Source: a virus. From it: DNA of 24,372 bases. Below, one piece after another: positions 887 through 5,654 of the stretch. Under the pieces are notes generated by a model. It did not search any database, was not told the DNA's origin, and worked only from the letters and a program-made list of their open reading frames with translations. The translations under genes and the position numbers were made by a program. Position 1 is the stretch's first letter. Every line of letters begins with the position of its first letter. The stretch spans positions 1-24,372 of IMG/VR virus record IMGVR_UViG_3300034072_000605; one strand, given 5' to 3'.

Positions 887-918
887 ACGGCTTTCCGCGC
901 CAACGGAAAGCCGTTTTT
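887..918 (+). terminator. Rho-independent terminator after the portal remnant
   Basis: A perfect 11-bp stem (ACGGCTTTCCG at 887-897 and CGGAAAGCCGT at 904-914) with a six-base loop is followed directly by TTTT at 915-918. It lies about 100 bases after the stop of the portal remnant and probably ends its transcription, separating it from the late operon that begins near 1887. Confidence 0.85.
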
Positions 919-1157: not shown

Positions 1158-1260
1158 TGCTTGAAGAGTGCTTGAGCAGTGCTTGAGCAGTGCTTGAGCA
1201 ATGCTTGAGCAGTGCTTGAGCAATGCTTGAGCAGTGCTTGAGCAATGCTTGAGCAATGCT
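1158..1260 (+). repeat. Array of about nine 11-bp near-palindromic direct repeats
   Basis: Eight copies of TGCTTGAGCAR (R is A or G) run head to tail from 1169 to 1256. A degenerate copy precedes them (1158-1168) and a four-base remnant follows (1257-1260). Each unit is itself nearly palindromic, with TGCT and AGCA flanking a central TG. The 11-bp period is close to one turn of the DNA helix, so bound protein would line up on one face. This is the layout of operator arrays and replication iterons; which one applies here is unknown. Confidence 0.9.
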
Positions 1261-1886: not shown

Positions 1887-2357
1887 ATGTCACGAGGGCG
1901 ACCGACAAAGTACGACCCGAATTTTCATCCCATCTGGGCTGAAAAACTTGCAAAACTTGGGGCGACAAACGACGAAATCGCCGAAAATTTTGATGTTGCT
2001 CCTTCGACTATTTGGGAATGGAAGCAGCAATATCCTACTTTTTCGAACGCCATCAAAAGTGGCAAGGATTTTGCAGACGCTGAAGTCGCATCGAAACTGT
2101 TCGCCCGTGCAACGGGATACGAACATCCTGAGGACGATATCAAGGTGGTTAATGGCGAAATCGTCATAACGCCGACAGTCAAGCGATATCCGCCTGACAC
2201 AGCCGCCGCCTTCATCTGGCTGAAAAACCGGCAGCCCAAAAAATGGCGCGACCGCCAGCCGGAAGAGCACGATGACGAAGGGGCCACTCCCACTAAAATC
2301 GTGGTCGAGGTAAAGGACGCGCGGAAGCCGGATCCCGATCCCGATGCCCAGCCTTAA
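1887..2357 (+). CDS. terS: Terminase small subunit
   Basis: This 156-residue protein is the likely DNA-recognition subunit of the packaging motor: it binds the phage packaging site and hands DNA to the large subunit. After a basic N-terminus (GRPTKYDP) comes a helix-turn-helix at about residues 24-46 (ATNDEIAENFDVAPSTIWEW). Next is the helical assembly region with LFARATGYEHPEDD, then the segment AAAFIWLKNRQPKKWRDR that is common in phage small terminases, and an acidic, proline-rich tail. I chose the ATG at 1887 because GGAGGG lies four bases upstream (1877-1882) and the protein then begins with the usual GRPTKY; an earlier in-frame start would add 12 unlikely residues. Its last 14 bases overlap the large-subunit gene, which suggests translational coupling. 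It is the first gene after the leader unit at 1654-1759. Confidence 0.85.
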   Translation: MSRGRPTKYDPNFHPIWAEKLAKLGATNDEIAENFDVAPSTIWEWKQQYPTFSNAIKSGKDFADAEVASKLFARATGYEHPEDDIKVVNGEIVITPTVKRYPPDTAAAFIWLKNRQPKKWRDRQPEEHDDEGATPTKIVVEVKDARKPDPDPDAQP

Positions 2358-4314
2358 CGTTCCTCAGGCCAAGTTTTTACAGTTAGGCACCAAGTACCGG
2401 GCTTACGTGGCCGGGTTTGGCTGCCTGCGCGGCAGCACCGAAGTGCTGACCGAGTACGGGCCTATGCCGATTGCGGAAATAGATAGGCCAATGCGCGTTC
2501 TATCTTGGTCGGCGACGAATAGTCGATACGAGCTGTCTCTAAGTGGCGGTGCGTTCCCAAAAGGTAAGGGGAGGCTATACCAAGTTTCGACGCCGCGAGG
2601 AGTATTTGTCGCAAGCGCACATCACCGCGTGCTCTGCGCTGACGGTGTATATCGATGCGTGGCAGACCTGAGCGTAGGTGTGGCGATACGCGTTGCTTCC
2701 GAAGAGCTTCTTCGCTCCAATTTGGCACTTTGCCCGAAATCGTCGCATGCAGGTGGTCTGTATTCGCCGGAAAAACTCGCAGATTACTTGGGGCATTATG
2801 CAGATGCAGCCCGTCGATATGGTCAACGACTTCTTCCGGGGTCAGATGGCGGCCAATCGCAATCTCTGCAACAAGACGGTGCTCAAGAATTTGTCCGCTT
2901 GAACGCGCATACGGATGACCCGCCGGGGCACGGACTAAAGCGCATCGGCAGAAGTCAGGCACATGACCAAAACTCTAAAGAATACAGCAAGATCACATCA
3001 CTTTCGCTGCTGGATTTAGAGGAGGTGTATTATGACTTGCAGGTTTTGGACAACAACAACTACGTCACTGTAGACGGCGCAGTGCATCACAACAGCGGCA
3101 AGACTTGGGTTGGCTCCGGCGCTCTGTGCGCCCACGCTTGGGAGTGGCCTAAAATAACGATGGGGTATTTTGCCCCGAGCTATCCGCAGATCCGGGACAT
3201 TTTTTATCAGACGATTGAGGAGGTTGCGCACGACTGGGGACTGACGGTGGATATCAAACAGGCGAACAAAGAGGTTCACCTGTACAGCGGTCGGCAGTAC
3301 CGATCCACAATCATCTGCCGGTCCATGGACGCGCCGCAAAACATTGTGGGCTTTAAAATCGGCCATGCGATGGTTGACGAACTTGACGTGATGCCCGCGG
3401 CAAAGGCCGAACTGGCATGGCGAAAAATCATCGCCCGTATGCGTTACAACGTTGACGGCCTCAAAAACGGCGTCGATGTTACGACAACGCCGGAAGGTTT
3501 CCGATTTACATATCAACGCTTTGTCAAATCAGTTCGCGACAATCCGGAGCTTGCAGCTACCTACGGCTTAGTGCAGGCCAGCACGTATGACAACGCCGCC
3601 AACCTTCCGGACGATTACATCTCGTCGCTGATGGGAGACTACCCCCCGCAGCTGATCAAAGCGTATCTTGGGGGGGAATTTGTCAACCTGACGAGCGGTA
3701 CGGTCTATCACGCCTACAGCCGGGTTGATAACGCATCATCTGAAACCATCCGTGATGGCGAAACCCTGCACATCGGCATGGATTTTAACGTCGGCAAAAT
3801 GGCCGCCGTCGTGCACGTGTCAAGGCCGCCGGAACTGCACGCTGTTGAGGAGATTATCAACGCCTATGACACGCCGGACATGGTGCGACGCATCCAAGAG
3901 CGGTATTGGCGATTTGAAAACGGAAAATATGTGAAAAGCCGCGAAATGCGCATTTACCCCGACGCATCAGGGGGTAGCAGAAAATCTGTCAACGCGGCGG
4001 AGTCAGATATAGCCCTCCTGCGACAGGCCGGGTTCACGGTCATCTCGGATGCGGCGAACCCGCCGGTTAAGGACCGCGTCAACGCCATGAACGGTCTATT
4101 CTTGAATGCGGCAGGCCAGCGGCGGTACAAGGTAAACCATCAGGGGTGTCCCTCCTACGCGCACGCACTTGAACAGCAGGTTTGGGCGGCGAACGGGGAG
4201 CCGGACAAAAGCCAAGGGAATGACCATGCCAACGACGCGGCGGGCTATGTCGTCGCCAAACTGCATCCGATTGTTAAGCGACAGCTAAAAACCATCAGCG
4301 TACAGGGGTTCTGA
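2344..4314 (+). CDS. terL: Terminase large subunit with an intein in its Walker A motif
   Basis: The 656-residue precursor is the ATPase and nuclease that cuts concatemeric DNA and pumps it into the head. Residues 27-250 are an intein (separate entry); removing them leaves 432 residues, a normal length for this family. Splicing joins AGFG to SGKT, creating the P-loop AGFGSGKTWVGS. The rest of the motor follows. Walker B is HAMVDELD, with Asp345 and Glu346 in precursor numbering, and the coupling motif is VTTTPEG (379-385). The RNase H-like nuclease has candidate metal ligands Asp480 in IGMDFNVGK, Asp540 in IYPDASGG and Asp631 in HANDAAGYVV. The ATG at 2344 overlaps the small-subunit gene. Without splicing the ATPase site is split, so this gene should be inactive until the intein excises. 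Confidence 0.95.
   Translation: MPSLNVPQAKFLQLGTKYRAYVAGFGCLRGSTEVLTEYGPMPIAEIDRPMRVLSWSATNSRYELSLSGGAFPKGKGRLYQVSTPRGVFVASAHHRVLCADGVYRCVADLSVGVAIRVASEELLRSNLALCPKSSHAGGLYSPEKLADYLGHYADAARRYGQRLLPGSDGGQSQSLQQDGAQEFVRLNAHTDDPPGHGLKRIGRSQAHDQNSKEYSKITSLSLLDLEEVYYDLQVLDNNNYVTVDGAVHHNSGKTWVGSGALCAHAWEWPKITMGYFAPSYPQIRDIFYQTIEEVAHDWGLTVDIKQANKEVHLYSGRQYRSTIICRSMDAPQNIVGFKIGHAMVDELDVMPAAKAELAWRKIIARMRYNVDGLKNGVDVTTTPEGFRFTYQRFVKSVRDNPELAATYGLVQASTYDNAANLPDDYISSLMGDYPPQLIKAYLGGEFVNLTSGTVYHAYSRVDNASSETIRDGETLHIGMDFNVGKMAAVVHVSRPPELHAVEEIINAYDTPDMVRRIQERYWRFENGKYVKSREMRIYPDASGGSRKSVNAAESDIALLRQAGFTVISDAANPPVKDRVNAMNGLFLNAAGQRRYKVNHQGCPSYAHALEQQVWAANGEPDKSQGNDHANDAAGYVVAKLHPIVKRQLKTISVQGF
2422..3093 (+). 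other. Intein (Hint splicing domain) inside terL, 224 residues
   Basis: The intein runs from Cys27 to Asn250 of the terminase precursor, with Ser251 as the first residue after it. Block A is CLRGSTEVLTEYGPMPIAEI, beginning with the nucleophilic Cys. Block B is FVASAHHRVL (about residues 88-97), where a Ser-x-x-His replaces the more usual Thr-x-x-His. Block F is VYYDLQVLDNNNYVTVDG, and block G is VHHN followed by Ser. All residues needed for splicing are present, so it is probably active. Between block B and block F, roughly residues 115-220, the plus-strand frame encodes low-complexity, unrecognisable protein rather than an endonuclease; the endonuclease is on the other strand here. Several codons in the intein (ATA, AGG, CTA, AGT) are less common in the flanking gene, in line with a separate origin. 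Confidence 0.93.
2462..2962 (-). CDS. HNH homing endonuclease encoded antisense within the intein
   Basis: The minus-strand frame gives 166 residues. Residues 1-90 read as a standard HNH endonuclease of the HNH_3 type: ALVRAPAGHPYA, then LEHRLVAEIAIGRHLTPEE, then VVDHIDG (Asp47-His48), HNAPSNLRVF (Asn56, Asn60) and TDHLHA (His70), ending with KVPNWSEEALRKQR. The order and spacing of EHR, GR-L-PEE, D/H-H-IDG, NL and the last His are those of the family, so chance is very unlikely. These enzymes cut intein-less alleles and so spread the intein. The only in-frame start is GTG at 2960-2962, because a TAG lies just upstream (2975-2977); its ribosome site is poor. CAACAA/ATTATG (3051-3056, 3029-3034) could be a minus-strand -35/-10 pair, weakly. 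Residues 95-166 run back over the Hint-coding part and match nothing I know. Confidence 0.8.
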   Translation of the reverse strand: MPDFCRCALVRAPAGHPYARSSGQILEHRLVAEIAIGRHLTPEEVVDHIDGLHLHNAPSNLRVFPANTDHLHATISGKVPNWSEEALRKQRVSPHLRSGLPRIDIHRQRRARGDVRLRQILLAASKLGIASPYLLGTHRHLETARIDYSSPTKIERALAYLFPQSA

Positions 4315-4316
4315 TC

Positions 4317-5654
4317 ATGAGTTACGAAAAAACGCATCCGATGTATGCGGCACACCTCCCCGAGTGGCAGAGGATCCGCGCCTGTTGCGCTGGCGGCGAT
4401 GCAGTCAAAGAGGCCGGGGAACGCTATCTTCCCAAGCCGGGCGGGCTGACCGACAAGGAATACGCGGCGTACAAGGACCGCGCTCTGTTTTTTGGGGCTA
4501 CGGGCCGGACGGTAGACGGTCTTTTGGGCGCGATGTTTCGCAAGGATCCGAGCATCACGCTGCCGGACAATATGGCATACCTCCTTTCCAACGCGGACGG
4601 GGCCGGGACAAGCCTGAATGTATTCCTGCGGTCGGTGGCAAAGGAAGTGCTGACCATGGGGCGTCACGGCCTGCTGACCGAGATTGACCGATTTGGGAAC
4701 CCATACCTCGTTTCTTATGCCGCTGAAAACATTCGCAACTGGCGCGAAACGAGCGAAGACCAGACGGTCGTCGATCAGGTTATTTTGCGGGAAATCCACA
4801 CCGTTCCCGCGCCGGATGGTTTCGGCGCGACATACGAAGAGCGCTACAGAGTTTTGGAGCTTGAGGGCGGCCAATATATCCAGACCGTCTACGGCGCGGC
4901 GGGCTCTCAGGGCATCCGAGAGGAGCCTGTGGTTCGGGGCCGGGCACTTGGCTACATCCCGTTTACCTTTGTTGGGTCGGACAATCTGTCACCGGCGGTC
5001 GGAAAGTCGCCCGTTTCTGAGCTGTCAGCCGTCAACATCAGCCACTACGTGACGCAGGCCGACCTTGAGCACGCCGCCCACTGGACGGGCCTGCCAACTC
5101 TCGTCGTGATCGGAGCAAGCGATGAAAACACATCGCTGCGCGTAGGCTCCTCCGAAGCTGTTTTGCTGCCGCCCGGTGGCGATATGAAATTCGTCGAATT
5201 TACCGGGGCCGGTCTGTCAGTCCTCAGTGAGCGGGCCGCCGCAAAAGAAAGCTACATGGTACTCCTCGGCGCTCGTCTGCTTGAGGAGCAAAAAAAGGCA
5301 GCGGAAACAGCAGAGTCGAAGCGCCTGCAATATTCAGGCGAAAATAGCATCCTCGCTCAGATCGCTAACCTTGTGTCTGAGGCCGTCACGCGGAACCTTG
5401 TTTACGCCTACAAAATCATCACAAACTCTGATGCGGATGTCGGGGCAGATACCGTTTCAGTGTCCCTTAACACCGACTTTTTCGATGCAAAGCTGACGTC
5501 TGATCAGGCAACGGCAATCGTGTCGCTCTATCAAAACGGCCTGATGTCTCAGCGGTCAGCGGTCTGGAACCTGCAACAGGGTGAGGTTCTGCCGCCGGAC
5601 ACGACGGTCGAGGCGGAAATTGACGCCATCGAAACCACGCCCCCGGCTGTTTGA
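4317..5654 (+). CDS. Phage portal protein, DUF4055 type
   Basis: The 445-residue protein fits the DUF4055 portal family in length and sequence: an N-terminal segment KTHPMYAAHLPEWQRIR, then GGLTDKEYAAYKDRALFFGATGRTVDGLLG and FRKDP, then GRHGLLTEID and a long mixed region. Near the C-terminus (about 325-355) is a helix rich in Glu, Lys and Ala of the kind that lines the portal tunnel. It would form the ring at one head vertex, the docking site for terminase and later for the neck proteins. The ATG lies two bases after the terminase stop with AGGGG at 4304-4308. This is the functional portal of the module; the DUF1073 fragment at 1-789 belongs to another family. Confidence 0.88.
   Translation: MSYEKTHPMYAAHLPEWQRIRACCAGGDAVKEAGERYLPKPGGLTDKEYAAYKDRALFFGATGRTVDGLLGAMFRKDPSITLPDNMAYLLSNADGAGTSLNVFLRSVAKEVLTMGRHGLLTEIDRFGNPYLVSYAAENIRNWRETSEDQTVVDQVILREIHTVPAPDGFGATYEERYRVLELEGGQYIQTVYGAAGSQGIREEPVVRGRALGYIPFTFVGSDNLSPAVGKSPVSELSAVNISHYVTQADLEHAAHWTGLPTLVVIGASDENTSLRVGSSEAVLLPPGGDMKFVEFTGAGLSVLSERAAAKESYMVLLGARLLEEQKKAAETAESKRLQYSGENSILAQIANLVSEAVTRNLVYAYKIITNSDADVGADTVSVSLNTDFFDAKLTSDQATAIVSLYQNGLMSQRSAVWNLQQGEVLPPDTTVEAEIDAIETTPPAV

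Follow-up and report, generated by a model that had tools for sequence, protein, structure and literature searches.

A tandem array of TGCT-N2/3-AGCA sites upstream of a phage small terminase gene as a candidate detached replication origin

In the lambda record, the iterons are annotated from 39034, inside gene O, and we take the domain boundary to place them right past the DNA-binding domain of O. The lambda O initiator is described as binding these iterons, opening AT-rich DNA and recruiting the helicase (PMC7466680). In SPP1, according to the account in PMC6316719, gp38 binds repeats in its own gene (oriL) and a further set that occupies a wide gap between genes of the late region (oriR). 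Semi-palindromic iterons are also reported to be bound by the winged-helix N-terminal domains of pSK41 Rep, with the Rep boxes inside rep (PMC5703833), and of PLE RepA, with the iterons in a non-coding region (PMC7145576).

Here, we analyze a 24,372-base IMG/VR virus record, itself a fragment and referred to over its whole length as the window, in which an array of nine palindromic TGCT-N2/3-AGCA sites lies ~620 bp upstream of the small terminase gene terS. Judging from the sequence, we favor, with some reserve, the reading that the array constitutes the iterons of a phage replication origin, bound by a winged-helix initiator and, like SPP1 oriR, situated apart from the initiator gene. The features of the region are as follows.

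1-789: portal gene, PF06381, 3' end truncated
887-914, plus strand: hairpin with a perfect 11-bp stem and a 6-nt loop, then T-rich sequence; likely terminator and left border of the region
1004-1037, no strand assigned: second short array, TGGGTTAAGCCG, 12-bp period, 2.8 copies; possibly more binding sites
1044-1063, no strand assigned: third short array, CGTCGCATGT / CGTTGCATGT, 10-bp period, 2 copies
1120-1143, no strand assigned: near-perfect palindrome with 11-nt arms, 91% complementary, 14 bp ahead of the degenerate copy
1158-1168, no strand assigned: degenerate first copy, TGCTTGAAGAG
1169-1256, no strand assigned: eight perfect TGCTTGAGCA-R units with TGCT/AGCA arms and TG centre; proposed initiator-binding iterons
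1257-1267, no strand assigned: ninth site, TGCTACAAGCA, of the TGCT-N3-AGCA form with a 3-base centre
1626-1665, no strand assigned: AT-richest intergenic 40-mer, 70% AT (window 99th percentile 62.5%); possible but remote unwinding element
1887-2357, plus strand: terminase small subunit gene terS, phrog_309, E 1e-55
2344-4314: terL with intein, PF14890 match in the Walker A region
4317-5654: second portal gene, family DUF4055, which differs from the PF06381 portal

The 11-bp near-palindromic repeat array of the preliminary description is borne out by Tandem Repeats Finder, which gives 1158-1260 a score of 164 at period 11 (9.4 copies, 92% matches) and of 182 at a 22-bp period, and by the exact positions of the TGCTTGAGCA cores, which start at 1169, 1180, 1191, 1202, 1213, 1224, 1235 and 1246 with a pitch of exactly 11 bp. 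Eight to nine copies had been placed at 1158-1260; the eight perfect units stand, but the copy at 1158 is degenerate and the ninth site, which runs outside those coordinates, had been overlooked. The site array is thus 1169-1267 plus one degenerate copy. The word TGCTACAAGCA is also present in Mycobacterium phage Tweety, 3' of its replication initiation gene. These nine are the only TGCT-N2/3-AGCA sites in the entire window, and every one lies within the array; 200 dinucleotide shuffles of the window gave a mean of 0.6 sites and a maximum of 2 within 110 bp. Tandem short palindromic repeats at helical-scale spacing, here nine sites at an 11-bp pitch, give the array an iteron-like form, and it may be bound by protein cooperatively. 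The spacing had been described as exactly one helical turn per unit; however, 11 bp correspond to 1.05 turns at 10.5 bp/turn, and by arithmetic successive copies therefore drift by ~17 degrees each. Similarly, the last base of the eight units reads G G A G A G A A in order, and the alternation of A and G that had been seen in it is not significant, because chance gives such alternation in 26/70 orders; a duplication step of 22 bp is possibly behind the pattern.

As had been noted, the array lies in gene-free DNA: none of the ORFs tested through 790-1886 matched a family convincingly (best E 0.024). Scans for Rfam families and tRNAs gave no hits, and no DnaA box was found near the array. The 60-bp stretch beside the array (1240-1299) has 40% GC, the AT-richest 40-mer is 360 bp off, and no AT-rich tract abuts the array in the window in the manner of the locus L071 described below. 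No initiator gene was recognized among the ORFs examined in the 24-kb window, itself a fragment. Minus-strand ORFs across the array look like initiator linkers (ALLKHCSS...), and the array was considered as a remnant of an initiator gene; this candidate was rejected, as a surrounding initiator domain was not found.

The genes on the two sides of the gap have different affinities. The first portal gene ends ~70 codons before the end of its best relative (Plectonema phage Lbo240-yong2, 58% identity), and because two portal types flank the region, the record would be a mosaic or the junction of two phages or elements, so that the array may belong to either side. In terL, the PF14890 match covers residues 75-250 and is below the curated cut-off, and the ATPase match runs from residue 251. 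BLAST searches against phages, near and distant, found no relative for the window, for the array or for the intergenic gap; the array and the whole window gave nothing against plasmids except a 72% terL stretch, and the array had no match in E. coli genomes, all in searches in which the low-complexity filter may mask such repeats. A scan of viral contigs with the portal fragment gave no match, and one with the DUF4055 portal gave four distant loci.

Outside the window, the repeat unit recurs in or right after initiator genes. The exact two-unit array TGCTTGAGCANTGCTTGAGCA was sought in viral contigs and found at 17 loci, 15 of which have it inside or just after or beside a replication-initiator-like gene: inside the ORF at 11 (L056, L058, L059, L064, L068, L069, L070, L071, L072, L073 and L074, among which L064/L068/L069/L073 and L071/L072 are near copies) and beside or directly after it at four (L057, L062, L063 and L066). 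At L067, the contig stops at the array and the ORF resembles an initiator linker, and this locus was counted as consistent. L065, in which the array lies upstream of terS as in the window, is the sole locus of the 17 that does not fit an initiator. A family search of the array-linked proteins, taking in all but the near copies L068, L069, L072 and L073, gave most of them the names 'replication initiation', 'O-like', 'primosomal' or DUF1376; the L056 protein matched DUF1376 only below the curated cut-off, and the L058 protein had no match in Pfam and PHROGs. L071 has the textbook layout of an initiator domain, then a five-unit array (one unit degenerate), then an AT-rich run.

Genome contigs yielded three-unit arrays in two bacterial contigs (L060 and L061), neither at an initiator; the one in L061 (5376-5407) lies between sulfite-reductase-like and cobyrinate-synthase-like genes (named by eye), with no phage genes around it. 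A relaxed three-unit pattern with a YR centre found no additional contig, and among 198 genomes of the phylum of G002, the two-unit pair occurred in G002 alone, itself chosen by the pattern. The L065 contig (117-11951) carries integrases, terS with the four-unit array upstream of it, terL, two ParB-N/methylase-like genes (by eye) and a Prim-Pol/D5 primase-helicase; it may be a phage satellite that relies on the same repeat at its origin.

Searches led by the initiator proteins point to the same place. For an actinophage set, the query was built from four aligned actinophage initiators, including one (L057) first met through the array, and gave 47 loci, 38 of them non-redundant, in which sites were counted in the 300 bp around the end of the protein match and in two control windows per locus. 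For a DUF1376 set, the query was the DUF1376 protein of L074, likewise met through the array, and the best 80 of 166 confirmed loci gave 52 non-redundant ones. TGCT-N2/3-AGCA sites numbered 46 in 24/38 loci of the actinophage set, with 0 and 0 in the control windows, and 63 in 39/52 loci of the DUF1376 set (from the best 80 of 166) versus 0.7 expected from the flanks; because the loci within each set are related, these counts are not independent events, and because L057 and L074 seeded the sets, they are partly circular. The TGCT arm ranks 1 of 256 gapped-palindrome arms just past the DNA-binding domain in the actinophage set and also 1 of 256 in the DUF1376 set, again from the best 80 of 166. 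Thus, the repeat sequence of the array in the window is that of the sites at initiator genes, both in 15/17 contigs and in the two protein-led sets.

The two sets differ in how the sites relate to the coding sequence. In the actinophage set, 44/46 sites lie 3' of the initiator stop codon, mostly within 60 bp. In the DUF1376 set, 63/63 sites are within the coding region, so that codon usage could be tested: for NAxSN-type peptides, GCT is used in 46/50 cases and AGC in 50/50, versus 170/474 and 63/217, respectively, in the upstream background. The DNA itself is thus constrained, since one family has coding copies with fixed codons and the other has copies outside coding sequence, and selection appears to act on the sequence of the TGCT-N2/3-AGCA sites themselves.

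Checks that were blind to the array were weaker than the two sets and had fewer matches. With phrog_3926, 8 matches were obtained in 296 genomes, and 1/8 (L089) has two sites in place; with DUF1376, 3 matches were obtained in 297 genomes, and 1/3 (L142) has two TGCTTGAGCA sites ~100 bp outside the matched region, on the side that a minus-strand reading of the stored stretch predicts. Among 57 phage records with a DUF1376 relative, 16 named phages were examined, and 2/16 have TGCT sites in the zone. Six of 62 actinophage records with a relative were examined, and 5/6 have sites in the gap 3' of the replication initiation gene, namely two TGCTTGAGCA each in Ardmore, Dante and ThetaBob and two TGCT-N3-AGCA each in Tweety and Demsculpinboyz, while Holliday has half-sites only. 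TGTT-N2-AACA repeats instead of TGCT sites occupy the same place in Rac ydaU of E. coli K-12, Rac-SA53 and 683R6. Repeated non-TGCT gapped palindromes were present in the zone of 5/17 named DUF1376 genes, of which three are Rac relatives, versus 4/257 control windows, and 1/13 loci of the DUF1376 set without TGCT sites had any such palindrome. Altogether, the few array-blind TGCT matches and the TGTT-N2-AACA repeats in Rac relatives indicate several kinds of iteron, of which TGCT-N2/3-AGCA is a common one.

The surroundings of the sites vary between loci. In K-12 ydaU (L224, 3620-4477), the DUF1376 domain is closely followed by two copies of TGTTCAAACA and one of TGTTTGAACA, and these repeats are a candidate for the origin of the Rac prophage inside ydaU. 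In L117 and L119, a cluster of three TGCT-N3-AGCA sites lies upstream of the initiator domain, 568-602 bp ahead of the point where the match to that domain ends, and the usual place has no perfect sites. L098, L101, L122 and L129 have an apparent GIY-YIG-like frame (by eye) directly after the initiator, where sites are expected; L101 has one site 365 bp further downstream. Many actinophage loci between L093 and L139 have, ~60-200 bp past the initiator stop codon, ACGTACG/ACGGACG runs, then TTACG, then AACGCGCGCAGGGGGG; this shared element after the sites may be the remainder of the origin. Past the sites of the DUF1376 set, AT content shows no clear rise on average.

DUF1376 is listed in Pfam as a domain of unknown function. 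By hhalign, it aligns with the actinophage initiator family with a probability of 89 and an E of 2.3e-6 over a region that includes a basic ERAxKAAxARW stretch, suggesting that both initiator families have a common domain. AlphaFold models of the two families (mean pLDDT 79 and 88) have a predicted winged-helix-like order of elements. For the DUF1376 model, the VIA list has the plasmid Rep structures 4pql, 5kbj, 4pt7 and 4pta at ranks 1, 2, 3 and 10 (Z 6.8, 6.6, 6.5 and 6.0; 75-77 residues aligned; rmsd 2.8-3.9). All structural matches are under Z 8, and Foldseek gave no significant match; because the Rep matches are tied with CRP-like and other winged helices, the likeness to plasmid Rep is suggestive only. 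The fold searches returned winged-helix-class matches alone, with no significance among unrelated ones, and the absence of other families from them proves nothing. Profile searches against the sequences of solved structures gave nothing useful.

The preliminary description had named the small terminase and a replication initiator among the candidate binders; the places of the unit in other phages speak for the initiator, and the relatives of terS speak against the terminase. A packaging site, at which the small terminase would bind the array to mark pac or cos, would account for the position of the array upstream of terS, and the unrelated contig L065 also has its four-unit array upstream of its terS. 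However, terS of L065 belongs to phrog_57 and that of the window to phrog_309, the L065 contig also encodes a primase-helicase, and the unit is found mainly at initiator genes. Moreover, a pac or cos site is expected to be kept beside terS in relatives with a similar small terminase. Among 48 terS relatives, 37 had readable upstream sequence of up to 2.5 kb, some of it shorter, and 11 were left out as too short or partial; the array was present in 0/37 of these regions, with a single site in one and other repeats in two, and 0/31 whole relatives (29 found by terS, 2 by the portal) had paired sites in either spacing form. The check proposed at the outset, a search for the unit in relatives of the window, thus found the array in none, and we consider packaging very unlikely. 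In L040, one of the terS relatives, 17.5 copies of the 12-bp repeat CAATCTCGGGGA are found ~2.3-2.5 kb upstream of the gene.

We also consider it unlikely that the array is a functionless remnant or neutral satellite, in which an old cluster of iterons, or a palindrome that arose by chance, grew by slippage or unequal exchange at the mosaic junction. The eight identical cores, suggestive of recent homogenization, the higher score of the 22-bp period, the position between the 3'-truncated portal of one phage type and the terS of another phage, and the three-unit arrays in two bacterial contigs with no phage replication genes in view are all in line with such an origin; on the other hand, the sequence of the unit is one that is under selection elsewhere, and the ninth site differs from the rest yet is an equally valid variant, which plain one-unit slippage would not yield. 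Palindromic units in a promoter-sized gap, accompanied within 270 bp by a palindrome and further short arrays, would also suit a set of operators bound by a regulator such as a repressor or a partition protein, possibly one reading the half-site of the initiators. We give this little credence: the promoter search of the gap gave one weak promoter-like match (1816-1844), no better than chance, and in the loci examined the unit is found repeatedly at initiator genes but not at repressor genes.

Because the unit matches repeats in or right after phage initiator genes elsewhere, the array is probably initiator-binding and the start of viral DNA copying. We suggest that a cognate initiator encoded by the virus, of the winged-helix type and DUF1376/YdaU, O-like or akin to the actinophage 'replication initiation protein', would bind with its N-terminal domain the TGCT/AGCA half-sites side by side at the nine palindromic sites. 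The bound initiators would assemble into a nucleoprotein complex that opens nearby AT-rich DNA, after which helicase loader and helicase would be brought in and the region would serve as origin. Such an origin would be placed in the large non-coding gap upstream of terS, away from the initiator gene.

More broadly, TGCT-N2/3-AGCA may be a deeply shared iteron, in that DUF1376 and actinophage initiators keep one half-site past the DNA-binding domain, with the window as a detached nine-site origin among late genes; we see the chances of this generalization as evenly balanced. To our knowledge, origins are unmapped for most phages, and a half-site kept across distant initiators would make the origins of many of them readable from sequence. 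A common recognizable site would predict origins and initiator targets in tractable phages, e.g., Tweety and Ardmore, and DUF1376 would become a testable origin-binding domain. If true, the persistence of the half-site across distant initiators, together with the TGTT-N2-AACA variant in Rac ydaU, would also open binding specificity and its drift to direct study. Iteron origins beside phage initiators are already known; new are the iteron sequence common to initiator families and the detached nine-site form. Among the papers listed in searches of the open-access literature on DUF1376 with iterons or replication, on the motif and on mycobacteriophage origins, none described this iteron class.

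Compared with described systems, the array shares with ori-lambda the use of palindromic tandem iterons, which in lambda lie inside the initiator gene (PMC7466680). Unlike the sites in the window, which has no initiator in view, the lambda iterons are 18 bp long, differ in sequence and are abutted by an AT-rich tract. The winged-helix domains of the RepA_N protein of pSK41 and of PLE RepA act on semi-palindromic iterons, as proposed here, and the likeness to these proteins is one of layout and, suggestively, of fold. The actinophage region of Tweety, Ardmore and Dante has the same TGCT-N2/3-AGCA sites, in tandem and in non-coding DNA, but only ~2-3 of them, mostly at a pitch of 11-13 bp and directly after the initiator, whereas the window has nine. 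Closest in layout is SPP1: likened by layout, the array in the window fits the detached oriR kind as that origin is described (PMC6316719), with the difference that SPP1 has both sets of repeats and only the detached set is seen in the window.
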